Positions 14,027 through 28,785 of a DNA stretch of 64,000 nt are shown here, piece after piece. The first letter of the stretch is position 1. Every line of letters starts with the position of its first letter. Under the pieces are notes generated by a model. The model made no database searches, was not told where the DNA came from, and was given only the letters and a program-made list of their open reading frames with translations. The position numbers and the translations under genes are program-made. The DNA is taken from the NCBI RefSeq assembly GCF_003957295.1, contig NZ_RQPJ01000002.1, positions 186,001-250,000 on the forward strand, in the 5' to 3' direction. The stretch comes from Arenibacter aquaticus (lineage in GTDB: Bacteria > Bacteroidota > Bacteroidia > Flavobacteriales > Flavobacteriaceae).

Positions 14027-14198
14027 AAACCCCTAATAATAGACATAAGCACCCCTCAATTAGAGCTTTCGCCGCTTATTTTTAACACTTATTAACAATA
14101 TTACTGGCATTATGCATACCCAAAGACACTTAATTGCTCCTTTTAATTGCAATTTTTTCCCAGGTAGTGGCAATTATGCTCAGAACAAGCCATACTCT

Positions 14199-17100
14199 AT
14201 GAAGCAGATACCTTTATTCTTCCTAGCCCTACTACTATCTTTAGGGTGCATGGCCCAAGAGAAAAGTGCATATCTTCAAAAACTGAACATAGAAGGCATC
14301 CCTTTCAACAAAAAGACCAATGTTATATTTGAAGACCACCTAGGCTTTCTATGGTTGGGAACAGATAGTGGGCTATACCGATATGACGGTCATACACTAA
14401 TTGAAAACCAATACGATGTTTTTGACGAGCATTCCATTCCCAACAACAGTATAAACTCCCTTGTGGAAGACAATCTTGGAAATCTATGGATAGGCAGTGA
14501 AAGTTATTTAATATGGTACAATAGAAAAACAAACCAATTTAAGGGCTTCTACAAAAACAATACCTCCAAATTATTGGGAAAATCATCGGATGGTACAATA
14601 TGGGCCAATTTAAGGAACACCGGGATTGTAAAAATAATTCCCAACCAAAAGGCAGAGAACCTTACATTTATTACGGAATTCAATTATAAGCAAGAAAATA
14701 AAATTTGGACCAATGATAAACAGGTAAATCATTTAGAGGAAGATCTATTTGGTAGATTATGGTTTGCCACACCCAATGGCATACTCGTTTTAGGTCCCGA
14801 TAATAAATTAATTGAAAGCGGATTCCCAAAAGCTACAGAAGCGCTTATCAAAACCAATAACAACAGTTTTATTGCAAGAACTGATCAAGGTATATATGTT
14901 CTTGGCTATGGGCAGGACAACTATGAATTGGAAGTCTTGGAAAGCTATACCACTTTTCCAATTAACAAAACCAAAAACACTGCGTTAACGGCATTGGCAA
15001 AAGAAAAGGAATCCCCTATCTTATGGATTGGAACACAGTCTGGAGTAATTAAGGGAAGTCGCAAAAACAACCAATACTCCTTTCAACACATAAACAACTC
15101 CAACAACCCTTATGGGTCTCTAGGGGTTCGCATCAACTCCTTGACCATTGATAAATTCAATAATCTTTGGTTGGCCACCAACAAGGGGGTAAAAAAGTAT
15201 ACCGGTAGAACTTCAATATTCCAATTTACTCCGTTGGACAAGGAGTTGACCAATTTCTTTCCCCAATCGCTACTAAAAGAAAACAGCCACAAGTTCTTAT
15301 TGTCTATTAATGGGAAAGGGCTTTATCGCTTTAACAAATCCCTGAACACCAACAAACTACTACTGCCTACCCAAGAACTTTCAACCGTTGTCAGGAAAGA
15401 CTATGAAAAAAAAGAACTCTTAGTGGGCCTTGGCCCATACCTTTTAAAAACCACAAATTATCTGCCTAACAGGAGTTCCTTTAAAACGGATACCCTTGAA
15501 CAATACTCAAAGGACATAAAAGATATTATTCCCATTAACAAAAATGAAACTTGGGTAGGACTTTGGGGCGGGGGCATCGACATTGTAAATACCGAGGCAG
15601 CCCTGTCTAATTTTAAACAAAAGATAATCTCGCTACTATTAGGTAAAAACGTATCGGTAATGCTATTGGACCGTATGCAAAACATTTGGGTAGGAACCAG
15701 AGGAGACGGACTATATAAAATAGACCTGATCAATGAAGAGATAAAAACATTTATCCCTTCTATAGATCACGGCCTTTCTTCCAATGCCATATTAAGTTTG
15801 TTGGAAACGGGACAAGGTAACATATGGATTGGGACAAGAGGTGGAGGTTTAAATTTTTATAATGCCCAAGACCAGTCCATAACATCCTATGGCAAAAATG
15901 AGGGCTTACAATCTACCACTATTGCAGGTATAGAGCAGGACAAGGACGGGTATTTATGGTTAAGTACACGTGCGGGCATTTCACGCTTCAATATAGACGA
16001 TAAAAAGTTCGTGAATTTTGGAATGGAAGACGGTCTTGCCGAAAGTCATTTCATATTCAATTCCCACACCAAAGATGATAAAGGCGTCTTATATTTCGGT
16101 TGCCCAGGTGGATTTTATAGCCTTAACGCAAATAACTACCAGAAATCCAAGCTTTTACCCAACACCATCATCACTAAATTCCATGTTCTTAGCAATGGAT
16201 CAAAAAATTCAAATTTAAAAGACATATCAACCTCCCTGGCACTACAAGAAGACACCAAAGAGTTGGAATTACCTTATAACAACAATAATATTGCCATAGA
16301 ATTCTCCTCATTGGATTTTACGGCCCCCAATAAAAACAAATACGCTTATAAGTTGGAAGGAATCAATGACTTTTGGAACCGCACCACTGCCTCCAACAGA
16401 AATGCCAATTATAATGACCTTCCTCCGGGAAAATACACTTTTAAGGTAAGAAGCAGTAACAGTGATGGCGTATGGAATACCACCCCAGCCTCATTTAGCT
16501 TTATAATTACCCCTCCTTATTGGAAAAGCAATTTGGCTTATCTAATTTACTTTATACTATTGACTATTTGTATATACATTACCTATCTACTGGTACAAAG
16601 GTGGTATAAACTGAAAAAGAATTTAGTTACCGAAACAATCAGCCGAGAAAAAGACAATGAAATAAACCGAATGAAAATGGTCTTTTTTACGGACATTTCC
16701 CATGAATTACGTACTCCTTTGGCCTTAATTCTAGGAACCATTGAAAAAGTAGTAAAAGAAAAAAAATTCACTCTAAGTCCGTTAACCTCCCAACGTATCT
16801 ACAATAACACCTTAAGGATGCACAGGCTGATCAACCAAATAATGGACATTAGAAAATTTGACGAGGGCAAGCTCAAATTAAATATTTCAAAAAATGATAT
16901 CGTAAAGGACATCAATACAATAAAGAGTGCCTTTAACGACTTTGCACGGATTTACGAAATAAAATATGATTTCAAATGCGAAAAACAAGAAATAAAAGGT
17001 TGGTACGATGTAGATATTTTAGAAAAAATACTATTTAACCTTTTATCCAACGCCTTTAAATACACTCCTAAAAAAGGGGAAATCAACGTTACGCTACAAT

Positions 17101-18299
17101 TGGCCAACACCCATGATCTTTACTCTATTGTAAAGCTAAGAGGAAAAGGGAAATACATTAAATGTAGCGTACGCGACAATGGTATTGGAATACCTAAAAG
17201 TGATTTGCCCAACATTTTTGATCGATATTATCAGGCGACCAAAGCATATAGCAATCAAATACCAGGTACCGGAATTGGCATGGAACTAGTTCAAAAACTT
17301 GTAGAAAGACATCATGGTGCTATAAGGGTTGAAAGTGAAGAAGGTGTATTCACCGAGTTTACGTTTTTTCTTCCTGTCAATAAAAATGCCTTTGATAAAA
17401 ATGAAAGGATTGATACTGGAAAACCACTGACCAGAAATTTCATTCACAATTCCGAATACCAGGTCATTGAGGAAGTCTCTTCAGAATTTGAAGCAAAGAC
17501 AAACTCAAATAACGACGGTAAACCCAAGGTGTTATTGGTTGAGGACAACAATGACCTCAGGTTAATGCTAAAGCAGGAGTTAATCAATGATTTCTACGTT
17601 ATAGAAGCCTCCAATGGCCAAGAGGGCTACAATTCAATTATAGAAGAAAGACCTCAATTGGTTATTTGTGATATTCTTATGCCTGTTGAAGACGGTATTT
17701 CAATGCTAAAACGGGTCAAAGAAAATAATGACATAAACACCATCCCCATTTTTATGTTGACCGCTAAAAATTCGGAGGACACAAAAATTGAATGTTTAAG
17801 TCTAGGGGCGGCAGATTACATAGAGAAGCCTTTTAGTATAGAATTTGTAAAATGGAAGGTTAAAAACACCCTTCTAACCAGAAAAGAACTCAAAGCAAAA
17901 TATAGCAAAATCATTACCTCGGCACCTTCTAATATTGAGGTGGAGTCCAATGATGAAAAGTTTATAAAAAAACTGATCCAAATTATTGAGGATTCCATGG
18001 ATGATAATTTACTGAGTGTAGAGTACCTGGCTTCGGAGGTGGGTATGAGCAGGGCCAACCTGTATAGAAAAGTACAGGCCATTGTAAGTGATACTCCCGT
18101 TAACTTTATTAAACAAATACGGCTTAAAAGGGCTGCCCAATTACTACAGAAAAACAATATGTATATTTCGGAAGTAGCCTATATGTGTGGTTTCAACAAT
18201 CAGAAATACTTTAGTAAATGCTTTAGTAAGGAATATGGTAAAAGTCCCACGGAATACGCTAAACAATTTTCTGCCGAGAAAGTGGAACATCCGTCTTAA
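14199..18299 (+). CDS. Hybrid two-component system regulator (HTCS)
   Basis: A single 1366-residue chain combines sensor, kinase and regulator. The start at 14199 was chosen because a signal peptide begins there (MKQIPLFFLALLLSLGCMAQ); the frame is open back to 14112. The periplasmic part is a run of regulator-propeller repeats (for example FLWLGTDSGLYRYDG, NLWIGS, DGYLWLSTRAG). A Y_Y_Y domain follows (FKVRSSNSDGVWNTTPASFS). One membrane helix is at about 778-800. The kinase H-box DISHELRTPLALIL has His at about 834, followed by a HATPase region (DNGIGIP, GTGIGM). The receiver domain starts at about 1109 (VLLVEDNND) with phospho-Asp at about 1157 (ICDILMP). A C-terminal AraC-type helix-turn-helix completes it. 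HTCS proteins bind an oligosaccharide and activate the adjacent PUL, here the divergent SusCD operon. Confidence 0.96.
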   Translation: MKQIPLFFLALLLSLGCMAQEKSAYLQKLNIEGIPFNKKTNVIFEDHLGFLWLGTDSGLYRYDGHTLIENQYDVFDEHSIPNNSINSLVEDNLGNLWIGSESYLIWYNRKTNQFKGFYKNNTSKLLGKSSDGTIWANLRNTGIVKIIPNQKAENLTFITEFNYKQENKIWTNDKQVNHLEEDLFGRLWFATPNGILVLGPDNKLIESGFPKATEALIKTNNNSFIARTDQGIYVLGYGQDNYELEVLESYTTFPINKTKNTALTALAKEKESPILWIGTQSGVIKGSRKNNQYSFQHINNSNNPYGSLGVRINSLTIDKFNNLWLATNKGVKKYTGRTSIFQFTPLDKELTNFFPQSLLKENSHKFLLSINGKGLYRFNKSLNTNKLLLPTQELSTVVRKDYEKKELLVGLGPYLLKTTNYLPNRSSFKTDTLEQYSKDIKDIIPINKNETWVGLWGGGIDIVNTEAALSNFKQKIISLLLGKNVSVMLLDRMQNIWVGTRGDGLYKIDLINEEIKTFIPSIDHGLSSNAILSLLETGQGNIWIGTRGGGLNFYNAQDQSITSYGKNEGLQSTTIAGIEQDKDGYLWLSTRAGISRFNIDDKKFVNFGMEDGLAESHFIFNSHTKDDKGVLYFGCPGGFYSLNANNYQKSKLLPNTIITKFHVLSNGSKNSNLKDISTSLALQEDTKELELPYNNNNIAIEFSSLDFTAPNKNKYAYKLEGINDFWNRTTASNRNANYNDLPPGKYTFKVRSSNSDGVWNTTPASFSFIITPPYWKSNLAYLIYFILLTICIYITYLLVQRWYKLKKNLVTETISREKDNEINRMKMVFFTDISHELRTPLALILGTIEKVVKEKKFTLSPLTSQRIYNNTLRMHRLINQIMDIRKFDEGKLKLNISKNDIVKDINTIKSAFNDFARIYEIKYDFKCEKQEIKGWYDVDILEKILFNLLSNAFKYTPKKGEINVTLQLANTHDLYSIVKLRGKGKYIKCSVRDNGIGIPKSDLPNIFDRYYQATKAYSNQIPGTGIGMELVQKLVERHHGAIRVESEEGVFTEFTFFLPVNKNAFDKNERIDTGKPLTRNFIHNSEYQVIEEVSSEFEAKTNSNNDGKPKVLLVEDNNDLRLMLKQELINDFYVIEASNGQEGYNSIIEERPQLVICDILMPVEDGISMLKRVKENNDINTIPIFMLTAKNSEDTKIECLSLGAADYIEKPFSIEFVKWKVKNTLLTRKELKAKYSKIITSAPSNIEVESNDEKFIKKLIQIIEDSMDDNLLSVEYLASEVGMSRANLYRKVQAIVSDTPVNFIKQIRLKRAAQLLQKNNMYISEVAYMCGFNNQKYFSKCFSKEYGKSPTEYAKQFSAEKVEHPS

Positions 18300-18400
18300 A
18301 ACAAATTTTAAACTCAAAAGAAAAATGGAAATATATTGTCCCATATAACTATGCTGCCCTATTTTTGACACATAACCCATTTGGAGATTCCATTAATCTT

Positions 18401-19867
18401 ATGAAACATACAAAACACTTCCTCTTTATTATTATTGCAACCATATTGGTGACAATCTTTCAATCTTGTAAAGCTCCCAAGGACAAACAAGCAGACAAGC
18501 CGCTCCCCAATATTGTACTGATAAATGTTGACGATCTAGGATGGAAAGATCTGGGCTTTATGGGAAGTGAATATTATGAAACACCCAATCTGGATATTTT
18601 GGCCAAAGAAGGGATGATATTTTACAATGCCTACGCGGGGGCAGCCAATTGTGCCCCTAGCAGGGCCTGCCTCCTTTCCGGGCTCAACACCCCGAGGCAT
18701 GGTGTATATACTGTTAGTCCATCGGACAGGGGCAACCCCAAAACCAGAAAACTGGTACCCATAAAAAACACCAAGCATCTTAATGACAGCCTCTACACAC
18801 TTCCACAAATGTTAAAGTCGGCCGGATATGTTACCGGAAGTTTTGGGAAATGGCATGTTGGAAATGACCCCAAAAAACAAGGCATAGATATAAATGTAGG
18901 TGGGAGTGACAGAGGTAATCCCGGATCGGGGGGGTACTTTTCCCCTTATAAAATAGATAATATTACCAATGGTCCCAAAGGAGAGTATTTAACAGACCGA
19001 CTTACCCAGGAGGCCATTTCATTTATAGAAAAACAAAAGGATACCACCTTTTTCCTATATCTACCTTTCTACACCGTACATACTCCGATTATGGGAAAGG
19101 AGGAACTAATTGCCAAATACAAGGACAAAAAGGGGTCCAACGGGCAAAACAGACCGGACTATGCTGCTATGGTAGCTTCCATGGATGAAAATGTGGGCAA
19201 ACTGCTAACTGCCATTAAAGAAACCGGACTGGAAAAAAACACCATGGTGATTTTTACCTCCGACAATGGTGGCATTAGGGCCATTTCCGAACAGAACCCT
19301 CTGCGTGCTGGAAAAGGTTCTTACTATGAAGGCGGAATCCGCGTACCCATGCTTGTTAAGTGGCCTGGAAAGATACAGCCCAATTCACGCTCCATGGACC
19401 GTGTGGTTAATTTGGATATTTACCCCACCCTCCAACAAATTGTAAATCCCCCAAAAAAAGCCCCACTATTGGATGGAAAAGACCTTACTCCGATTTTCAA
19501 CAAGCAAGCTGCCGCTCAAAGGGATCTGTTTTTTCACTTCCCCGTATACCTTCAGAAATATAGCGGCATAGAAGACGGGGGCAGGGACCCCCTGTTCCGG
19601 ACCCGTCCAGGCTCTGTTATCATTTCGGGCGATTGGAAACTTCACGAGTATTTTGAGGATGGGGCATTGGAATTATACAACTTAAAATCTGACCCAGGTG
19701 AAGCTAATAATATTACCGAACAAAATCCGGATAAGACCAAGGAACTACATGACAAACTAATAGCATGGCGAAATAAAATGAATGCTCCGGTGCCAACCGT
19801 AAAAAACCGTGAATACGATGCCACCTTTGAACAAACTAGGATCATGCAGCAAGGTAAGGAGGAATAA
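18401..19867 (+). CDS. S1-family sulfatase, lipoprotein
   Basis: The protein has 488 residues from the ATG at 18401; an upstream in-frame start at 18365 would spoil the lipoprotein signal MKHTKHFLFIIIATILVT, whose lipobox Cys is residue 23. Metal-binding DD is in NVDDLGWKDLG. The formylglycine Cys is about residue 84 in NCAPSRACLLSG, and KWHVG and TSDNGG supply other active-site residues. The NCAPSRAC form and the short motif NVDDLGWKDLGFMGS place it in a different subfamily from the pair at 6006-9184. It lies 101 bases after the hybrid regulator on the same strand and could be co-transcribed with it. The gene is convergent with the Mur ligase, with 45 bases between the stop codons. Confidence 0.92.
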   Translation: MKHTKHFLFIIIATILVTIFQSCKAPKDKQADKPLPNIVLINVDDLGWKDLGFMGSEYYETPNLDILAKEGMIFYNAYAGAANCAPSRACLLSGLNTPRHGVYTVSPSDRGNPKTRKLVPIKNTKHLNDSLYTLPQMLKSAGYVTGSFGKWHVGNDPKKQGIDINVGGSDRGNPGSGGYFSPYKIDNITNGPKGEYLTDRLTQEAISFIEKQKDTTFFLYLPFYTVHTPIMGKEELIAKYKDKKGSNGQNRPDYAAMVASMDENVGKLLTAIKETGLEKNTMVIFTSDNGGIRAISEQNPLRAGKGSYYEGGIRVPMLVKWPGKIQPNSRSMDRVVNLDIYPTLQQIVNPPKKAPLLDGKDLTPIFNKQAAAQRDLFFHFPVYLQKYSGIEDGGRDPLFRTRPGSVIISGDWKLHEYFEDGALELYNLKSDPGEANNITEQNPDKTKELHDKLIAWRNKMNAPVPTVKNREYDATFEQTRIMQQGKEE

Positions 19868-19912
19868 CAAACGGCAGCTAAGCCTTAAACCACTATTACA
19901 GCACTCCTAAAT

Positions 19913-21214
19913 TCATTGGGCCGTAATTTTATGTTGGGAGAAAGAATCGCGAAATATGGGCATGTATTTATAGGCACTGGCTACGAGAATAACTACCAAG
20001 CCATTTTTGCCTACTACTTGTGAGAGCCTATCAGTGGCCTGCGCATAACCAGTTGCCGTATCTATGTCCTGAGAGTTTACACCAGCCTTTTCCAATCCTT
20101 CTTTAAGCAGTTTGGCTAATTCACCAGGGGCACGACCCCGGGCATAGTGCTCCAACTCATAACAAATAAAATGGTCAAAATGGGAGCAAAGAATTTCACC
20201 AAGCTCTGTATAGTGCCATGCAGGACGGTTGCCCGGTGTAGTGTACATACAAACCCTTGACCCTGAAAACTGTATTTGCATTAAATCAAGACTTTGTACC
20301 AAAGCCTTACAGGAAGGTACGGAAGCTATTGTATCTAAAAGTATGGTTTGTGCATACCCCTCTATAAAGTTTAAGTGCCCAGGAGAATCTTTCATCGAAT
20401 TTTTAAAGGTCTGTAGGGCTCTACCGATTGTTTTAAAAGAGATGCCCATCCCTTCTGCCATGGCCGCTGCCGCCAAGGCATTGGCTATATTTTGAAAAAA
20501 CACACCATTTCCGGCAGCGGGCAAATCACTCAAATAAATAATAGTTAGCTTTTTATCCTTCTCCCAGCGTTCCAGACGCTTAGCATTACCTGGTCCATTC
20601 AGGACATAGGCTATACCTCCCCTTTCTATGTGATTCTTAACAAATAAATTATCGGCTTTCAAAGAAAATAAAATAAGGCGGTGAACGGGATAGCTATTTA
20701 TCATTCCGGTGCAGAGAACATCATCTGCATTGAGTACCACAGCATCGCGAGCAGCATTGATAACCCGTTGCTTTAGGCTTGCCATCTGTTCCAGGGTCTC
20801 AATACCATCTATCCCAATTTGCTCACGGCCTACGTTCAAAAGTGCCGCTACATTGCATTGGTCCCTATACAGCCCTAGCTTCAACAATCCTCCACGTGCC
20901 GTCTCCAACACAGCTGCTGTTATGGAAGGATGGGACAATAAAATACGCGCCCCGTTATAATCGGCATAGTCATATCTGTTAAGGTACTCCCCATTGACCA
21001 CTACCCCATCCGTTGACGTATACCCCACAATGTGGCCAGCCTGGGAAAGTATATGTGCCAGCATTCTGGTAGTTGTAGTTTTTCCCTTAGTTCCAGTTAC
21101 CATGGCAATAGGTATCCTTCGCCCAAATACCCGCCTTAAAGGAACTAAAGCATATTTACGCAGTACAAACCTTATTAACCGTAAATACGGGACAAGTTTG
21201 CGCCACATTGCCAT
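19913..21214 (-). CDS. Mur ligase-family protein resembling the C-terminal half of cyanophycin synthetase
   Basis: This 433-residue protein starts at the ATG at 21214; a TTG at 21238 would add eight residues. It has no signal peptide and is cytoplasmic, with a basic amphipathic N-terminus. The ATP-binding P-loop is VTGTKGKTTTTR (about 39-50). The motifs STDGVVVNG, VAVLETARGG-like AAVLETARGGLLKLGL and VVLNADDVL match the Mur ligase domain of CphA better than MurC-F or FPGS. Known family chemistry is ATP-driven amide-bond formation via an acyl phosphate. The Lys of TLEQMASLKQRV could be the carbamylated Lys. Oddity: the usual NxxxDH motif reads NVGREQIG, with Gln in place of His. The CphA ATP-grasp half is absent, but an ATP-grasp gene lies immediately upstream. 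The product is unknown. Confidence 0.8.
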   Translation of the reverse strand: MAMWRKLVPYLRLIRFVLRKYALVPLRRVFGRRIPIAMVTGTKGKTTTTRMLAHILSQAGHIVGYTSTDGVVVNGEYLNRYDYADYNGARILLSHPSITAAVLETARGGLLKLGLYRDQCNVAALLNVGREQIGIDGIETLEQMASLKQRVINAARDAVVLNADDVLCTGMINSYPVHRLILFSLKADNLFVKNHIERGGIAYVLNGPGNAKRLERWEKDKKLTIIYLSDLPAAGNGVFFQNIANALAAAAMAEGMGISFKTIGRALQTFKNSMKDSPGHLNFIEGYAQTILLDTIASVPSCKALVQSLDLMQIQFSGSRVCMYTTPGNRPAWHYTELGEILCSHFDHFICYELEHYARGRAPGELAKLLKEGLEKAGVNSQDIDTATGYAQATDRLSQVVGKNGLVVILVASAYKYMPIFRDSFSQHKITAQ

Positions 21215-21319
21215 CTTAACACTCTTTATATGCTTCAATACTGCTGTGATAGTCTATTTAGGTATTATTGTCAAGATAAATAAAATAGGTCTATTAAAAT
21301 ATGCCAAACTAATACCTCT

Positions 21320-22363
21320 CTACAGAGTGGCCCTTAGCATTTCTTTGACCAATGGATGCTTTCTGTATCCCCCATATCCTACCTCGGACATGGTAAGGTT
21401 GGTATTGTGATTGCCTTCAAGAACTATTGGTCCATATGGAGTTATAGCGATGTCCCATCCCATAAGCTTGTTGGGATACATTAGACTCATATCCAGTGCC
21501 AATTGCCTGGACTCTGCATAAAATGGTATGCTAAAACCATTAAAAACATAGTTGGAATCAGGGTGACTTTGATACTCTTTTCCTCCGAAAGTCATTTGAG
21601 AAAATCCCTTTCCAATAAGACATTCATTCCTATCATCTATTGAAACACAAAACCCACCTTTACTCCTATTGTCCACAACATTGCCTCCTTGTCCAAAACG
21701 CATTACAGCTCCCAGCAAATGTGGTATGTTATCTTCGCCCATATATACATCAAACCTCAAAGTGTTAATGCTATTTTCATAAATTTTGTTAATATCATGG
21801 TGTTGCACCAAACACTCTTGGTATATGAAGGAGCCATCAAGGATTATTGCCCCTATTTCTTCTATTTGCCTGTATAGATGCTGTTTCTCCAACATATATA
21901 TTCCTTTCCCTCCCTTATCCCGTATACTCTTAGCAAATAATTTTGTAACCTGAAAATGCTGAAACAATCCCTGAAAGAACTCCAATAAATCCGAAGTCGT
22001 GGTAATGAGCTGTTTTTGTTTATTCTTATAAAAATTTGAAGCAGAATTGTAACCGTATAAGCGCGGTGCCGGTAGTCCATTGGATTCACATAAAAGTGCA
22101 AACAGCAATTTATTCTCTACCACATCCACATAGAATGGGTTTTGAATTTTATCGGAACAATAAAGTTTTGTCAATTCTGCGGTACTAATATAATCCCTGT
22201 AATTTTTAAACTTGGTCCGATAGAGGAATCTGCTAAAATAATGCACTGGCAGTTTTCTTTGTTCTATCCACAACAGTAGGAATTCCTTGGCTATTTGCGT
22301 TGATTTTTTCTTCTGGGTGTCCGCTATAACAGACTTTATCCCCGACACAACCCTTTTTATCAT
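21320..22363 (-). CDS. ATP-grasp protein of the sugar-transfer-associated type (ATPgrasp_ST)
   Basis: This 347-residue cytoplasmic protein has an all-helical N-terminal part followed by an ATP-grasp fold. Visible features are the nucleotide-binding Lys region LFAKSIRDKGGKGIYML (about 142-158), the hinge EC at about 183-184, the NSINTLRFDVYMG stretch (about 197-209), the segment AVMRFGQGGNVVDNRSKGG and the metal-binding end VLEGNHNTNLTM. This pattern matches the ATPgrasp_ST (PF14397) group. Such proteins are thought to ligate an amino or hydroxyl acceptor to an acyl phosphate; few have known substrates. It is 105 bases upstream of the CphA-like Mur ligase in the same orientation. The pair may therefore do, as two chains, what cyanophycin synthetase does in one. 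Confidence 0.8.
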   Translation of the reverse strand: MIKRVVSGIKSVIADTQKKKSTQIAKEFLLLWIEQRKLPVHYFSRFLYRTKFKNYRDYISTAELTKLYCSDKIQNPFYVDVVENKLLFALLCESNGLPAPRLYGYNSASNFYKNKQKQLITTTSDLLEFFQGLFQHFQVTKLFAKSIRDKGGKGIYMLEKQHLYRQIEEIGAIILDGSFIYQECLVQHHDINKIYENSINTLRFDVYMGEDNIPHLLGAVMRFGQGGNVVDNRSKGGFCVSIDDRNECLIGKGFSQMTFGGKEYQSHPDSNYVFNGFSIPFYAESRQLALDMSLMYPNKLMGWDIAITPYGPIVLEGNHNTNLTMSEVGYGGYRKHPLVKEMLRATL

Positions 22364-22398
22364 AGTTTACATTCATTATCAGCCTTTTAAAGCTCTTC

Positions 22399-22406
22399 CT
22401 AAGATA
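22399..22406 (-). promoter_or_regulatory. Candidate -7 box for the ATP-grasp/Mur ligase unit
   Basis: On the minus strand this reads TATCTTAG, identical to the -7 boxes at 40372-40379 and 41026-41033, and lies 35 bases before the ATP-grasp start. A clear -33 TTTG at the right distance is lacking; TTTC is 22 bases upstream. Confidence 0.35.
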
Positions 22407-22566
22407 ACAAATGTCTTTTTATTTTAAGGAAACTATACTCTTTTTACCCATTTCACCTCCCATAACCTACCCAAAACCCTTCAGATTGACAGCTTATGAC
22501 CTGGCCTTTTTTATTTTCCTTTCAGAGAATGTTTCCACTAGGTCCAATGTATGATATAAGAAAATA

Positions 22567-22584
22567 GCAGGTTATAAAACCTGC
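22567..22584 (-). terminator. Candidate terminator after the sulfatase at 22625
   Basis: GCAGGTT (22567-22573) and AACCTGC (22578-22584) form a 7-bp stem with a 4-base loop, 40 bases after the sulfatase stop codon. On the minus strand it is followed by TATTTTCTTATA. It would separate the sulfatase transcript from the ATP-grasp/Mur ligase pair. Confidence 0.5.
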
Positions 22585-22624
22585 CCATTTTACAAAACAT
22601 GTGGTATTCCGTACTTTCTATCCA

Positions 22625-24232
22625 TTACTTTTTGGATTGTTCAATGTATTTATCATCAAGTTCCTTAGAGTCTTTGTATTTAACCCTTAGTGCGGCCAGT
22701 TCTTTCTTAAGCTTTGCTACAACATCTGCATAATCTGGATCATCATACACATTGTTCATCTCCTTGGGATCTTTTATACGGTCATACAATTCCCATTCGT
22801 CCACGTCATAATAAAAGTGGGCCAGTTTGTATTCCTTGGTCACAATACCGTAATGGCGTTTAACCATATGTACACTGGGATATTCGTAATAGTGATAATA
22901 AACGGCATCCCTGTTCCATTCATCAGCCTGCCCCTTCAATAAGGGCATAAGGCTTTCTCCCTGCATATCATCTGGAGCCTTGATCTGGGCGGCTTCCAAA
23001 AAGGTCTGGGCAAAGTCTAGGTTTTGCACCATCTCCTCCTCGGTTGTACCCGGTTTTATTTCATTGGGCCAACGGATCAACAATGGCGTTTTAAAGGATT
23101 CGTCATAGATAAAACGCTTGTCGAACCAACCGTGCTCCCCTAAATAGAATCCCTGATCTGAGGTATAGACCACTATGGTATTCTCTGCCAAGCCGTTGTT
23201 GTCCAAATAATCCAGCACCCGTCCCACATTATCGTCAACAGAGGAAATACTTCCCAAATAGTCCTGCATATAGCGCTGGTATTTCCAAATCATTTTTTCC
23301 TTGTCGGTCATAGTAGGCCATTTTTCTCTAAAATCTTGGTTTATGGCATCAATTATAGGTTTGTACTGACTCTTTTGTTCTTCGTTTCCTCGATTGAATT
23401 CGTTATTCACATCGGCTTGGGAACCTTCAACAACAGGCTGCACGTCTCCCATAGCTTCCAAGGTTGCGGGCCATATCTTGCTGTCATGGCTATATTGCAT
23501 ATGGTGCAAAAGGTTCATTTCGGCCGTTTTGGCCGCAGTACCCCTGTTGGAATAATCGTCAAATAAAGTTTCTGGTAGCGGAAAAGTTTTTTGGGTATAC
23601 TCCTTAAACTTGTCGGCTCTTGGCCACCACGGTCTGTGTGGGGCTTTGTGCAGATACATCAGGAGGAATGGCTTACTGGGGTCTCTTTTCTTATCCAACC
23701 ATTCAAGACTCATATCGGTAATAATATCGGTAACGTATCCGGTGATGGTGGTATCTCCTTTTTGGGTGATAAAATCCGGATTTATATAATGTCCCTGCCC
23801 TGGCAGAATCATAAAGTCGTCCACTCCCTTGGGGTTGTTCCCAAAGTGCAATTTCCCGAACATGGCCGTTTGGTAGCCAGCTTTCTGAAAAAGTTGCGGA
23901 AAGGTAACCTGGGTAGTGTCGAACGGATTGTGATTGTCTATTTTCCCATTAATGTGGGTGTGTTTCCCCGTAAGAATAGTAGCTCTGGATGGGGCACAAA
24001 TGGAGTTGGTGACGCTAGCGTTAGTGAATACTATCCCCTCCTTGGCCAGGCGATCTATATTTGGAGTATTAATTAAATGATCACTATAGGCACTAATAGC
24101 CTGATAGGCATGATCATCGGACATAATAAACAGTATGTTCGGTTTCTTGGGTTTTTGTTCCTTCTTTTCTGAACAGCTTTGGAACAAAAAAAGACCCAAG
24201 GCAACAAGGGAAAATAATGGTAGTGATTTCAT
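22625..24232 (-). CDS. S1-family sulfatase, lipoprotein
   Basis: The protein has 535 residues from the ATG at 24232, where a lipoprotein signal begins (MKSLPLFSLVALGLFLFQSC, lipobox Cys 20). The metal site is MSDDHAYQAISAY and the formylglycine Cys is about residue 79 in SICAPSRATILTGKHTH. GKLHFG and YTSDQGFYLGEHGWFDKRF complete the active site. The DDH and DQGFYLGEHGW signatures place it among the sulfatases related to N-acetylglucosamine-6-sulfatases and to many algal-glycan PUL sulfatases, clearly apart from the other four here. It is the last gene of a minus-strand block with the GH29 fusion and the GH42-like enzyme and is followed by a candidate terminator. Confidence 0.92.
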   Translation of the reverse strand: MKSLPLFSLVALGLFLFQSCSEKKEQKPKKPNILFIMSDDHAYQAISAYSDHLINTPNIDRLAKEGIVFTNASVTNSICAPSRATILTGKHTHINGKIDNHNPFDTTQVTFPQLFQKAGYQTAMFGKLHFGNNPKGVDDFMILPGQGHYINPDFITQKGDTTITGYVTDIITDMSLEWLDKKRDPSKPFLLMYLHKAPHRPWWPRADKFKEYTQKTFPLPETLFDDYSNRGTAAKTAEMNLLHHMQYSHDSKIWPATLEAMGDVQPVVEGSQADVNNEFNRGNEEQKSQYKPIIDAINQDFREKWPTMTDKEKMIWKYQRYMQDYLGSISSVDDNVGRVLDYLDNNGLAENTIVVYTSDQGFYLGEHGWFDKRFIYDESFKTPLLIRWPNEIKPGTTEEEMVQNLDFAQTFLEAAQIKAPDDMQGESLMPLLKGQADEWNRDAVYYHYYEYPSVHMVKRHYGIVTKEYKLAHFYYDVDEWELYDRIKDPKEMNNVYDDPDYADVVAKLKKELAALRVKYKDSKELDDKYIEQSKK

Positions 24233-24416
24233 AAGTTTGGTTAAATTAATAATACTCTTATTAAAGAGAATCAATAAATATAAAGGGTTTAGGGATAAAC
24301 ATCAAAAAATTATGCTACATAGGAAGAGGTACCTTCCTGGATAAGTTTAACTTTTCTACATGCTAAACAGAAATCCACAGGTTTAGGCCGCTTCCAATTT
24401 AAACATTGCTTTAATC

Positions 24417-26363
24417 CTACAAAGGGTTCACGCGCAAAAGTATGGTTGATTTTGGATCCATAACCAATTCCAATTGGCTTGAAGAATCGGTCAATATTTC
24501 ATTTTTTATTGGGTCTATAATCTGTGCCTTAAACGGAAAAGTGATATTTTTTTTCCCTCCTTTTATGGTATGTATGCCCATCCAGTTTCTGCCTATATAG
24601 AATACATCCTGAGTCTCAATATACCGGTGCACTCCTGCTCCTTCCCATAGTTCCCCTAATTCCGAAGCAGTCCATTTTAGTTTTCCTTCTAGAAACAATT
24701 GATCTCTATTTGGGCGGAATATATTGGTTCCTTTTCCGTTCGTCCACAGCACCGTAACCCCTTGTTTGGTCAACCTTTGTATCCTCGTTTCCTCTTCTGA
24801 ATGAAGTTCCAATAATCCCAGCAGCCACACTAGCTTGTATTGGGAAGTCGACATACGTTCCAAATCTGTCCTGAGAAAGAGATCGTAAGAATTTCCGGTT
24901 TTTGCCAACGGATAACGATTGGAGATGAGATTCTCTGTAAGATGGCCGTAGGTTGGGTCCCAAAAGGAGAGTTCTTCATCTACTATTACCCCCACTTGAG
25001 ATTTCATTTTTTCACCCGATGAGGGTGGAAACCTAGTGTACAATTGCTGTGTTTTATCTAAAACGTTCAATAACTCAGGATCACTGAACCACCCACCCCA
25101 CATATCAAACCACCAACCTCCATATCCATAAGCCAACATTCTTGCCGTATTTTTCCATAAAAAGGATACTGAGGTTTTCAGGTCCTCCGGCCCCAACCAC
25201 ACTCCGTTCTCATACTGTCCGGGAGGCGCTATACCATTTGAACGATCTTTTAACAAGGTGGTAATAGAAGTTCGGGTATCGTTTTCAGTAAGCCATAATT
25301 TGCCGTGCAACTGTACTGAATTGACGGCCGCCATCGGCGGCCAGTCTTCCCCTATCACACGATTATAGGAATTGGGACTAGACAAATAATCCAAATCTGG
25401 GCAATCTAACAATTTGGCCAAGGCCCCGTGTCCACGCCTTGGGTCTCCCACAAAATAATGGTACCCATAAAAGGCACCTGTTAAAAGATTGCCATGACTC
25501 TTTTGTTTCACAATTTTACTGAAATAGGCAATATTGTCTACCATGACCTCTGCCTGGAAGCGATAGGTGTCAATATAGTGCTGTTCTTGGTCAAGATTAC
25601 GCCATTCCTTACTTTTTGCATGCTCATCGATATTTGCTAGCAGCGCATTTTCAAAAGAGACCGATATGTTATTCCATGCCTTTTGCAGGGCCTCTTTATT
25701 CCCATATCTACCTTTTAACCACTGCCTAAACGCCTTTAATCTGTCCGGATTTTGGTCCTGATATTGTTTGGGGTGATAAAACCATTCCTCTGTAAAGCCA
25801 CTGGCCACATGGATTCCCGCCAAATACTCAGCATATCGTGAACCTAAAAGCCAGTCCAAACAATCACCCAATACTTCCCCAGTCTTATTCCGCCATATTT
25901 CCGATGCAAAGCATTGACGAAAAGTACTGCCATTTGGCAGATGGGCGGAAGCTTCCGGATACAATGAGGTCCACCATTGTGGTGGGTCCAAATAAAACCG
26001 GATAATTACTTTGGCCTTGGGGTCCGATTGTATGATTTTTTCAAAATCCTTAATAAGGTCAGTAAAATCATATTTACCTTCCCCCAACCAAATGGGAGTT
26101 CTAAAAGGACCTATACCTGAAATGGTATTGATTCCACCCTCTCCTAGATAAGCCGGGATGTTATAAATATGGATACCGGTCGCCGCTATTTCCTTATAAT
26201 ATTCTTCCTCCCCCAAATAAGACATATAGGCATAAGGAGGATAAATTTCGCCGTCAATAACAAGGGTAGGACTTCCAGTATCCAATCGTATTTCGGCCTT
26301 GGACTGTGCTTCTCCCGACTCAAGCCCTATTAACAGCAACACAACTATGGAAATGAAGTTCAT
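24417..26363 (-). CDS. GH42-like (clan GH-A) glycoside hydrolase, probable beta-galactosidase
   Basis: The protein has 648 residues from the ATG at 26363, where a signal peptide starts (MNFISIVVLLLIGLESGEAQ). The longer frame to 26486 would overlap the next gene by 56 bases. The (beta/alpha)8 region resembles beta-galactosidases: YAYMSYLGEEEYYKEIAATG at strand 1, FYLDPPQWW, the candidate acid/base Glu in SGFTEEWFYH, and the candidate nucleophile Glu in LWLTENDTRT. A trimerisation-like domain follows (VGVIVDEELSFW) and then a small C-terminal beta domain. It is similar in layout to GH42 but does not carry the familiar GH42 motifs exactly, so it may belong to a newer related family. It sits between the GH29 fusion and a sulfatase, 67 bases from the former. 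Confidence 0.65.
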   Translation of the reverse strand: MNFISIVVLLLIGLESGEAQSKAEIRLDTGSPTLVIDGEIYPPYAYMSYLGEEEYYKEIAATGIHIYNIPAYLGEGGINTISGIGPFRTPIWLGEGKYDFTDLIKDFEKIIQSDPKAKVIIRFYLDPPQWWTSLYPEASAHLPNGSTFRQCFASEIWRNKTGEVLGDCLDWLLGSRYAEYLAGIHVASGFTEEWFYHPKQYQDQNPDRLKAFRQWLKGRYGNKEALQKAWNNISVSFENALLANIDEHAKSKEWRNLDQEQHYIDTYRFQAEVMVDNIAYFSKIVKQKSHGNLLTGAFYGYHYFVGDPRRGHGALAKLLDCPDLDYLSSPNSYNRVIGEDWPPMAAVNSVQLHGKLWLTENDTRTSITTLLKDRSNGIAPPGQYENGVWLGPEDLKTSVSFLWKNTARMLAYGYGGWWFDMWGGWFSDPELLNVLDKTQQLYTRFPPSSGEKMKSQVGVIVDEELSFWDPTYGHLTENLISNRYPLAKTGNSYDLFLRTDLERMSTSQYKLVWLLGLLELHSEEETRIQRLTKQGVTVLWTNGKGTNIFRPNRDQLFLEGKLKWTASELGELWEGAGVHRYIETQDVFYIGRNWMGIHTIKGGKKNITFPFKAQIIDPIKNEILTDSSSQLELVMDPKSTILLRVNPL

Positions 26364-26430
26364 AAAATAACTGCCCTTTATACTTTCATAAAAACAATAT
26401 GATGAGTATGTATCCAACATTAATAAAACT

Positions 26431-28785
26431 TTAAAAATCAGTATCATAAACCGTAAAGCTCCGAATAGCACCCTTGTTGGCAACACTGGTATATGACAAT
26501 CGTAGTTTAGTTGTCCTTATGCTATCAAAAATCTGTATTCGCTTTCTCCCTATACTTTGACCATTGGCAATGCCCAACCATTCCCCATTAATATAGGCTT
26601 CCACATTGTAGTCCTTAATGAATTGTCCCTGCCGTAGGTCCTCCTCCAGTACCAATAGCCTTATAGATTTTTTCTTGGGAAGATGCATATAAATTTCTCC
26701 TTCCTGATGGTCATTCGTAAATTCGGCCGTGCCAATGGGATCCGCATAAACCTTATCTATAGTCATTCCCAATTCCTTAAGCATATCTACTTCCTTTTGC
26801 GGAATTAATCCTGTTGTATCCGGTGTCATATTAATTAAGATATTGGCACCTCTACCAATGGTTTGGAGATAGACCTTTTTTAAATAATCCATATCCCGTA
26901 AAGTACCGTCGGAATTAGAGGTCCAAAACCATTTCTCCCTAGGATGTATATTGGCTTCGGCAGGTATATAGCCAGCAGTTTGTGGTCCCACCCAATGAGA
27001 AAATCCCTCACCCTGCTCCAATATATTCCACAGTGGATATGCTGCCCAACCCTGCTCGCTCCCTGACCAGCGCACATCTGGTTTTGTGCCTCCCATCACC
27101 ACGGCATTGGGCTGCAAATGTTCCACCATAGTTCTAATGGCATCACCATAAGCGGTACCTAAGGGCTTCATGGTTTTGGGATCCATTACATCCCATCCAA
27201 ACGGATCATAGGCTCCATCAAACCAAACATAGGAGATATCGCCATAACCCGTCAATAATTCCCGTAGTTGCTCCAGAAATACGGGGTAGTATTGGTGTAT
27301 GTCACCTACCAGTTTTCTTTCCCCTTGGGGATCAGGTGTACTGCTAACCCCAAAATGCTTATCCCCTCCTGAAATATATAATCCAACTTTGATATCATAT
27401 TTTCGGCAGGCCTTTACAAATTCGGAAACCACATCCCCTTTGCCTTCCTTCCATGGCGATTGTTTAACAGAGTATTCTGTGGTCTTTGTAGGCCACAAAC
27501 AGTAACCATTATGATGTTTGGCCGTAAGAACAATATGCTTGGCTCCAAAGGATTTGGCAGTTTTTACCCATTGTTCTGCATTTAATTGAGACGGATTAAA
27601 TACATCTGCAGCAGGTACACTCATAAAATCCGATTCAATGTAAGTAGCCGGACCAAAGTGGATAAAAGCCCCCATTTGTCTTTCCTGAAAGGCCAATTGC
27701 TGGGGAGTTGGTGTTCTGCTAATCGCCGATAATGAAACCGCACCATACTCAGCAGTATCTTGAGGGGCCGTTAGTACCGGAGCCCAATCTCCTTGGTGCT
27801 CAGGAGGCTTCACTTTTACTCCATTGGTGTTTTTAAAAAAATGTTCAAACAATTGTTGGGGCGTCCCATCATAGGTTGCCCATTGTAAATCTCCGGCAGT
27901 CGTTTGGTCGCTTCCCGTAAAATAAAGTATAGTCCGTCCGTTATAGTAACACAGTTCCACATCGGAAGCGTTACTCTCACTTATTGAAAGATCAATTAAC
28001 GGAATGTTCTTATGGGCTGTATCAAATGTTATAAAGGGTCTGTCCACATCTGCGTCTTCCCAATGCAGTAAATCCTTGGAACGCGTAATCCGGGTTTCAT
28101 AACCTGGGTTTAAAGCCTCCAAATAAAGGGTATAATACCATCCTCCTTCATAATATAATGCAGGTCCGCCCACATATTTATCTGTACCATAGATAGCGTT
28201 GGGAATGGCTTCCCAATTAATCAGGTCGGTCGATTTCATATATCTAAACGTAAACGGCTTCCAATGTTTATCGTTAGTCTCATAGAGTAGGATAAATTCA
28301 CTTTTGCCCCGACAAACAGCCGTATTAAAGAAAAACTCATTTTTGCCCGCTCTGAGTATCACTTGGGGTTTGGTCCAAGTCTTTAGGTCAGAGGTGCTGG
28401 TCATGCTGATCTCTGTAATCTGCCGCCAAGGTTTCCCCTCACCATAGTCGCCCGCAAAAACATACACCCGATCGTTCCAAACCAGAGCGGTTCCGAATCC
28501 GTGGTTTTTTAGTGGTACGGAAATTATTTTATCGGATTTAACATCCCTTATACGCACCTCATCCTCATGAAAATAATCTCCTGGCTTGGCTCTTTTTACA
28601 TCCCAAAACCGTTGATTGTTTTCCAATAAATACAGTTTATCCTCAAAAACAAATGGGGAGGTTTCCACCAATGGCGAACCCAGTCGACCCTTCTTTTCAA
28701 TTGGATTTTCAAAGGCAGTTTGAGCGCTTAAAGCTTCCCCAATTAAGACCATTAAAACACCCAAAAAAAGATTCTTAGACCACAC
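26431..28785 (-). CDS. Fusion of N-terminal five-bladed propeller (GH43/GH32-like) and GH29 alpha-L-fucosidase-like domain
   Basis: This 784-residue exported protein starts at a GTG (28785), with a signal peptide at about 1-22 (LFLGVLMVLIGEALSAQ). Residues about 30-330 look like a beta-propeller of clan GH-F/J type, with repeated blade motifs such as SDLKTWTKPQVI, STDLINWEAIP and SKDLLHWEDADV. Residues about 355-690 are a GH29-like barrel: FIHFGPATY, VLTAKHHNGYCLWPT, GLYISGGD, and WFDGAYDPFGWD with candidate nucleophile Asp523. The last 90 residues are a beta-sandwich resembling the F5/8 type found behind GH29. Family knowledge predicts alpha-L-fucosidase or alpha-galactosidase activity. The gene heads a block with a GH42-like enzyme and a sulfatase. 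Confidence 0.82.
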   Translation of the reverse strand: MWSKNLFLGVLMVLIGEALSAQTAFENPIEKKGRLGSPLVETSPFVFEDKLYLLENNQRFWDVKRAKPGDYFHEDEVRIRDVKSDKIISVPLKNHGFGTALVWNDRVYVFAGDYGEGKPWRQITEISMTSTSDLKTWTKPQVILRAGKNEFFFNTAVCRGKSEFILLYETNDKHWKPFTFRYMKSTDLINWEAIPNAIYGTDKYVGGPALYYEGGWYYTLYLEALNPGYETRITRSKDLLHWEDADVDRPFITFDTAHKNIPLIDLSISESNASDVELCYYNGRTILYFTGSDQTTAGDLQWATYDGTPQQLFEHFFKNTNGVKVKPPEHQGDWAPVLTAPQDTAEYGAVSLSAISRTPTPQQLAFQERQMGAFIHFGPATYIESDFMSVPAADVFNPSQLNAEQWVKTAKSFGAKHIVLTAKHHNGYCLWPTKTTEYSVKQSPWKEGKGDVVSEFVKACRKYDIKVGLYISGGDKHFGVSSTPDPQGERKLVGDIHQYYPVFLEQLRELLTGYGDISYVWFDGAYDPFGWDVMDPKTMKPLGTAYGDAIRTMVEHLQPNAVVMGGTKPDVRWSGSEQGWAAYPLWNILEQGEGFSHWVGPQTAGYIPAEANIHPREKWFWTSNSDGTLRDMDYLKKVYLQTIGRGANILINMTPDTTGLIPQKEVDMLKELGMTIDKVYADPIGTAEFTNDHQEGEIYMHLPKKKSIRLLVLEEDLRQGQFIKDYNVEAYINGEWLGIANGQSIGRKRIQIFDSIRTTKLRLSYTSVANKGAIRSFTVYDTDF

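Follow-up and report, generated by a model that had tools for sequence, protein, structure and literature searches.

Among the nearest described relatives of the system considered here is cyanophycin synthetase, CphA1, which unites an ATP-grasp (G) domain and a Mur ligase (M) domain according to PMC9427784. For TeCphA1 the same paper gives Lys499, Thr500, Thr522 and Glu558 as binding ATP and Mg, and PMC9262961 gives D585A H586A as the M-inactive mutant that its authors made of the D585/H586 pair of SuCphA1. Separate genes are found in archaeal pseudomurein clusters, where ATP-grasp and Mur ligase genes lie together (PMC11915815), so that a pairing of separate genes is not new as such. Here we describe such a pair in a 64,000-nucleotide stretch of the Arenibacter aquaticus genome (contig NZ_RQPJ01000002.1, positions 186,001 to 250,000), called the window below. 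A gene for an ATP-grasp protein of the ATPgrasp_ST family is followed by one for a stand-alone Mur ligase of CphA type, and both lie between two sulfatase genes. The pair is a real, rare and oddly assembled cargo, and it is unusual for an orphan Mur ligase of CphA type, its catalytic residues changed, to stand next to a displaced ligase of glycan type.

Another point of comparison is the TupA-like ATP-grasp of Campylobacter, the C-terminal domain of Cj1438, which amidates glucuronic acid of the capsule (PMC11800379); it belongs to another ATP-grasp family than the PF14397 protein of the window and serves as an analogy only. The open-licence literature yielded nothing on ATPgrasp_ST or PF14397, also under "sugar-transfer associated ATP-grasp", and nothing on a set of PaaK, ATP-grasp and exopolysaccharide genes, a weak sign that the product is undescribed. 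In the portions of that literature available, no description of a CphA-type Mur ligase standing alone was noticed, which is weak evidence of absence.

The gene pair and its protein families

The two genes are as follows.

19913-21214, minus strand: stand-alone CphA-type Mur ligase gene, 433 residues
21320-22363, minus strand: ATPgrasp_ST gene (sugar-transfer associated ATP-grasp), 347 residues, intact

Both open reading frames (ORFs) lie where the preliminary description had placed them, on the same strand with 105 bases between them and without internal stops. The longest frame of the Mur gene starts at a TTG at 21238. The Mur frame is open over 433 codons, and its codon-position composition falls inside the range of 15 other window genes.

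In a Pfam profile search the ATP-grasp protein matched PF14397 with an E value of 1.9e-39 and 136 bits, passing the curated cut-off of 31.4. The Mur protein has the Mur middle domain PF08245 (E = 7.1e-17) as its sole Pfam match above cut-off. Its best NCBIfam match is cyanophycin synthetase TIGR02068 (E = 3.2e-90) over positions 477-854 of the 862 in the profile, with 303 bits, far under the full-length cut-off of 850 bits. The closest solved relatives are CphA structures (3.3e-64), and the protein is homologous to the CphA1 M domain over about 380 residues. Other profiles scored far lower: the best MurE model at 1.4e-11, the archaeal pMurE at 3.5e-11 and FolC at 1.4e-5, and a PgsB model was absent among the best 25 of its 29 profile matches. 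The Mur protein is thus nearer to CphA than to the pseudomurein ligases, which are cell-wall enzymes. PgsB/CapB are Mur-type ligases with a short N-terminus ahead of the P-loop. In this trait PgsB/CapB and FolC resemble the Mur protein, but the profile scores differ, and an identity as FolC or PgsB was rejected on these scores. The earlier assignment to the CphA type, rather than to FolC or MurE, is borne out.

CphA1 carries its N, G and M domains in one chain, whereas the pair is encoded as two. The Mur protein consists of an N-terminus of about 30 residues, then the Mur middle and C-terminal regions, without a CphA N or G domain. The N-terminus is basic and amphipathic; over 18 residues its hydrophobic moment reaches 0.48 and its charge +6. 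The ATP-grasp protein gave no CphA match among the NCBIfam profiles at E <= 1, and a sequence search of solved structures found no relative at that threshold either; a profile built from four ATP-grasp sequences gave two implausible matches against solved structures and nothing else. A split gene or frameshift was also rejected, since both frames are open and the CphA G domain has no match in either protein.

The predicted structure of the ATP-grasp protein had a mean predicted local distance difference test score (pLDDT) of 56 and matched biotin carboxylase, RimK and D-Ala ligases weakly, with template-modelling scores of about 0.2-0.3. The model thus agrees with an ATP-grasp fold and says no more. 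The prediction for the Mur protein (mean pLDDT 36) was discarded.

The ATP-grasp clade and a probable partner locus on another contig

The ATP-grasp protein keeps 32 of the 32 columns conserved in its flavobacterial clade and loses 0. This count omits one weak second ATP-grasp in locus L150, a copy that is included in the 42 places of the locus survey below. The genome samples searched in this work overlap, and their sizes are not additive. A single-sequence search of 296 genomes of the order found nine with an ATP-grasp match at E <= 1e-15, its own included; strong matches came only from its own genome, G080 (two copies) and G125. With an alignment as query, 32 of 397 family genomes, again including its own, carried the subfamily at E <= 1e-50. 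A scan of genome contigs with the ATP-grasp sequence alone gave no match, and with alignment A1 it gave two loci, both PaaK-linked.

The locus survey covered 39 distinct ATPgrasp_ST loci (42 places) in stretches of 5.5-18 kb, L127 being on the same contig as L062 and a contig-edge copy, G066:C114, lying outside the loci read. A PaaK-like ligase gene stands within 1.5 kb of ATPgrasp_ST in 21 of the 39 loci, a sugar transferase occurs anywhere in the stretch in 13 and a PylC-like ATP-grasp in 5. These ligases are called PaaK-like on two grounds: one gene (L058) matches solved PaaK ligases (2.6e-11), and two genes on contig C9 of the present genome match NCBIfam PaaK-type models under their cut-offs. 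None of the 39 stretches holds a relative of the Mur protein near ATPgrasp_ST, and a full CphA occurs near it in one, 5 kb off. In polysaccharide loci of flavobacteria, relatives of the same clade, with up to 52% identity to the window protein, adjoin PaaK-like, sometimes PylC-like, and sugar-transferase genes, whereas the window copy adjoins the Mur gene. The preliminary description had named a lack of co-occurrence elsewhere as grounds for refuting its reading, and this applies as far as searched: no other genome with both genes was found in the sets searched, while the ATP-grasp relatives lie near PaaK-like ligases in the 21 loci.

In the tree, the ATP-grasp protein pairs with that of L131 (52% identity, the closest relative found; support 1.0) and falls in a wider group with L058 and L132 (0.91) and L147 (0.86), all PaaK-linked. 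As separate observations on this family, four loci at the level of the Flavobacteriaceae (L143, L146, L148 and L149), read by eye, have ATPgrasp_ST near apparent biotin synthase and ketosynthase-like genes without PaaK, and the copies in L117 (G019) and L126 (G240) have one TAG stop within the match.

The L131 stretch, from genome G229, has 11 ORFs, and its PaaK-like, ATPgrasp_ST and PylC-like genes adjoin one another. On contig C9 of the present genome (G000), counterparts were found for 10 of these 11 ORFs at 34-81% identity (PaaK-like 58%, PylC-like 59%, others up to 81%). The C9 region is partly rearranged and has extra genes, including a FemAB-like one. The missing eleventh counterpart is the ATP-grasp: tblastn over C9 100000-137000 gave none at E <= 1. 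Elsewhere in the genome ATPgrasp_ST occurs only as one partial match on contig C4, which leaves the window protein as the sole full-length copy, and the congeners G212 and G922 gave no ATP-grasp copy at E <= 1e-50. The simplest account is that the window ATP-grasp would belong to the C9-type pathway and is now relocated; a loss of the ATP-grasp and its later regain is possible.

ATP-grasp ligases form amides via acyl phosphates. Because its clade signature is intact and a locus with PaaK-, PylC- and FemAB-like genes exists elsewhere in the genome, the most likely role of the ATP-grasp protein is to form an amide during the assembly of a surface glycan. We picture it as an acyl-phosphate amide-forming ligase of a type often accompanied by a PaaK-like adenylating enzyme and sometimes by a PylC-like ATP-grasp; here the C9 partner genes would probably act with it in trans. 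It may also be asked whether a free-standing CphA-type Mur ligase, stripped of the N and G domains and of the residues for arginine ligation, was recruited beside a glycan ATP-grasp in place of the PaaK-like neighbour, giving a two-ligase unit for an undescribed amino-acid or peptide decoration; we consider this unlikely.

Kept and lost residues of the Mur protein and its relatives

Residues of the Mur protein were compared with 38 full-length CphA-type proteins (leaving out L057, a duplicate, and proteins of 700 residues or less) and separately with 78 M domains of CphA or CphA'-like proteins (leaving out three short matches). Six fragments were left out of the count of invariant columns and of later trees, and L196 gave no usable frame. 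The protein keeps Lys45, Glu104, Asn127 and Lys148, each present in 78/78 of the compared domains, as well as Thr46 and Thr68. Lys45, Thr46, Thr68 and Glu104 align to TeCphA1 Lys499, Thr500, Thr522 and Glu558, so that the P-loop and the Mg ligands are retained, and the protein has probably not lost its ability to bind ATP and Mg.

The M-site pair, Asp in 78/78 and His in 78/78 of the domains, is replaced by Glu131-Gln132 (D131E, H132Q), the equivalents of SuCphA1 D585/H586. Further changes, with the domains carrying the usual residue in brackets, are N43K (78/78), G81Y (77/78), G85D (78/78), R280H (76/76 rows with a letter), H297A and N298S (74/74 each) and D329N (71/72). Most residues of the lid motifs are changed: DYAHNP reads DTIASV, in which the Asp alone is kept, and GDRR reads GNRP, which keeps the Gly and the first Arg. 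The changed positions of these motifs are conserved in 37 or 38 of the 38 CphA. The preliminary description had matched the motifs of the protein to the CphA C-terminal ligase domain, and this holds for the P-loop core but for neither the Asp-His pair nor the greater part of DYAHNP and GDRR. From these changes, CphA arginine ligation by the Mur protein should be lost.

Of the 47 columns that are at least 95% invariant, 37 are kept and 10 changed, the latter largely in substrate and lid motifs. We judge this concentration, by eye and not by a statistical test, to point to altered use rather than random decay. In a leave-one-out comparison the next most divergent CphA-type domains, L049 and L052, changed 11/51 and 4/48 columns; since L049 is also strongly divergent, the Mur protein is not the sole divergent member.

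The same pattern could mean that the Mur protein has become a pseudo-ligase. It would then serve as a subunit that binds ATP and regulates or docks the ATP-grasp protein, and its basic N-terminal helix might place it at the membrane. The kept P-loop, Mg ligands and Lys148 together with the changed Asp-His pair and the changes in most lid-motif residues would fit such a role, as would the basic amphipathic N-terminus, but a complex between the two proteins is hypothetical and the 39 loci of related ATP-grasp genes have no relative of the Mur protein nearby, and we regard this role as improbable.

The preliminary description had proposed that the two chains share the work of cyanophycin synthetase, the ATP-grasp and the Mur protein alternating amide bonds on a peptide polymer. 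In favour of this, the Mur protein has its nearest relatives in CphA M domains, and CphA itself combines the two kinds of domain. The ATP-grasp protein is of a different family without a CphA match, however, the N domain is absent, the Mur protein has lost residues needed by CphA M domains (the Asp-His pair and most of DYAHNP), the pairing recurs in none of the 39 other loci, and no cyanophycinase was found among the 26 window ORFs scanned, to which that search was confined. We reject this split-synthetase reading on residues, domain content and context, and consider it very improbable.

In phylogeny the Mur protein groups with L049, L194 and L195 (approximate likelihood-ratio test SH-aLRT 97.7, ultrafast bootstrap 99). 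These proteins, from genomes G735, G775 and G824 of another bacterial family of the phylum, are full-length and CphA-like (837-888 residues; a full CphA profile match was checked for the G735 protein alone), whereas the Mur protein has 433 residues. They share D329N and D334H with it and, unlike it, keep the Asp-His pair and D(Y/F)AHNP. The Mur branch is very long (1.17 in FastTree, where the median tip is 0.09, and 1.34 in IQ-TREE), and long-branch attraction is possible; the grouping is favoured because the two substitutions are shared. The three relatives themselves differ at some CphA invariants and are sporadic (4/86 genomes, three of the four read); proteins of this type may make a product other than cyanophycin.

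The Mur protein was matched in one of 18 genomes of the genus, its own (E <= 1e-10). At E <= 1e-40, 58 matches came from 299 family genomes, own included, the other 57 lying in open frames of 794-938 residues, the size of full CphA. Among 366 family genomes of completeness 99% or more the own match was the only one at E <= 1e-49. Matches were found in 50 of 395 phylum genomes at E <= 1e-30 (own included) and in 21 of 114 genomes of the order of G869 at E <= 1e-40. They lie in CphA-sized frames, in second CphA-like frames of 553-640 residues and in two frames below 500 residues (427 and 456), whose matches start near contig ends. In the family of G735, 86 genomes gave 4 matches in frames of 732-906 residues. 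No other genome of the sets searched holds a stand-alone relative.

Mobile elements were searched as well. Of 23 plasmid records matching the Mur protein, the 12 inspected held cphA, longer Mur-family proteins or (Paracoccus) fragments, and the other 11 are annotated as cyanophycin synthetase. The ATP-grasp matched 7 plasmid records; the annotation of the one inspected shows no Mur gene beside it. Among phage records the sole match was an unannotated contig (31.5%), and viral contigs and a DNA-level plasmid search gave no match. On these searches a plasmid origin was rejected. Separately, a full CphA directly followed by a second, shorter CphA-like protein (about 550-640 residues) was seen both on plasmids of proteobacteria and in the genomes of a single order of the phylum (L162, L168, L170-L176; L186, L187, L188), with a cyanophycinase upstream on all three plasmids inspected. 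On a Legionella plasmid (L052:5326-8970) a 622-residue CphA-like protein has a cyanophycinase and an isoaspartyl peptidase directly downstream.

The sulfatase slot and the readings of the pair

The borders of the slot and the features around it are these.

18365-19867, plus strand: sulfatase A, left border of the slot (profile match, congener comparison)
22625-24274, minus strand: sulfatase B, right border of the slot (profile match, congener comparison)
22585-22566, minus strand: terminator-like hairpin between the sulfatase B and ATP-grasp genes, weak evidence
14112-18299: putative hybrid sensor regulator, 1395 residues, read by eye without a profile search
23591-24076, plus strand: frame antisense to sulfatase B, 161 residues, probably spurious

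The surrounding block encodes a SusC/SusD pair, a number of sulfatases and enzymes of GH30, GH29 and GH42 type, and past it follows an efflux pump. We searched 18 genomes of the genus with window positions 17000-26500 and read nine stretches from eight other species. Sulfatase A and the regulator are present in all eight, and in five congeners (G920, G926, G930, G931 and G935) sulfatase B faces sulfatase A. The contents of the slot differ. In G920 about 0.75 kb lies between the sulfatases, with no frame above 91 residues; in the other four there is a 154-residue 2Fe-2S protein and a 740-residue molybdopterin oxidoreductase (profiles were run on the G926 copies). This oxidoreductase pair stands at the slot in L089:3808-6507, with equivalents in L090, L091, L092 and L094. 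G934 has frames of the same length and similar start after sulfatase A, in a stretch where sulfatase B was not found, and G212 and G924 have other genes at the position. Nothing of window 19868-22625 aligned with the five loci of facing sulfatases. The two genes are thus accessory cargo, and the convergent sulfatases of a conserved polysaccharide utilization locus (PUL) enclose a slot of variable content. The earlier view of a unit of its own inserted in the PUL agrees with the five congeners that have the same convergent sulfatases without the pair. Because the slot varies among congeners, the position of the pair in the PUL says little of its function.

The transcription signals are less clear. 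The preliminary description had named a terminator of the sulfatase block and a candidate promoter for the pair. The hairpin is present, but such matches are near chance level (4 terminator-like sites in the region against 2.6 expected). The promoter is not supported: matches are not above chance (9 against 7.9 expected), and no full Bacteroidetes-type promoter was found in a scan upstream of the ATP-grasp gene. As the scan gave no minus-strand terminator-like site between the ATP-grasp and Mur genes, co-transcription is allowed, although the scan is not clearly above chance.

A variable slot also suits a plainer explanation, that the two genes are unrelated passengers, a displaced C9-type ATP-grasp and a decaying, functionless CphA fragment that share the slot by chance. 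This is possible, if somewhat doubtful. The changing slot content, the long Mur branch with its changed catalytic residues, the presence of the Mur gene in only one of 18 genus genomes and the failure to find a second pair all agree with it, but the Mur frame is open throughout with an ordinary codon-position composition, 37 of 47 invariant columns are kept, and the genes lie on the same strand, 105 bases apart.

The reading that we tentatively favour, at less than even confidence, is that of a cargo pair in which the ATP-grasp protein is an active glycan amide ligase acting in trans with its C9 partners and the Mur protein has been repurposed. It starts from what was established directly, namely the families, the residue losses, the slot, the clade and the C9 locus without an ATP-grasp. 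The Mur protein would be an M domain freed from CphA and most likely repurposed, so that it would join a different amine or acid onto the glycan intermediate on which the ATP-grasp protein acts. Its basic amphipathic N-terminus would suit membrane contact, as would a lipid-linked glycan substrate, which is speculation on our part. We infer the chemistry, the action in trans and any joint substrate. Several points weigh against this proposal. Adjacency in one genome is the sole link between the two proteins, and a second pair was not found. The glycan link does not hold generally, since 18 of the 39 ATPgrasp_ST loci lack a PaaK-like gene within 1.5 kb. The window has 41 ORFs of 150 residues or more, of which 26 were profile-scanned (most from 46764 onward fall outside the scan), and no sugar-transfer or polysaccharide-assembly gene was matched among these 26, neighbours that the ATPgrasp_ST name suggests without strictly requiring them. 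The predicted structures of both proteins are too poor for use. Finally, the Mur protein has lost the position whose mutation inactivates the SuCphA1 M domain, and it may therefore be dead.

Judged from sequence, the orphan Mur ligase is best read as repurposed or inactive. Many flavobacterial ATPgrasp_ST proteins fall in a recurrent set with a PaaK-like ligase, to which a PylC-like ATP-grasp is sometimes added. Should the Mur protein prove active, one half of a polymer synthetase would have been freed and re-aimed at other chemistry, and the residues to probe are those already named.

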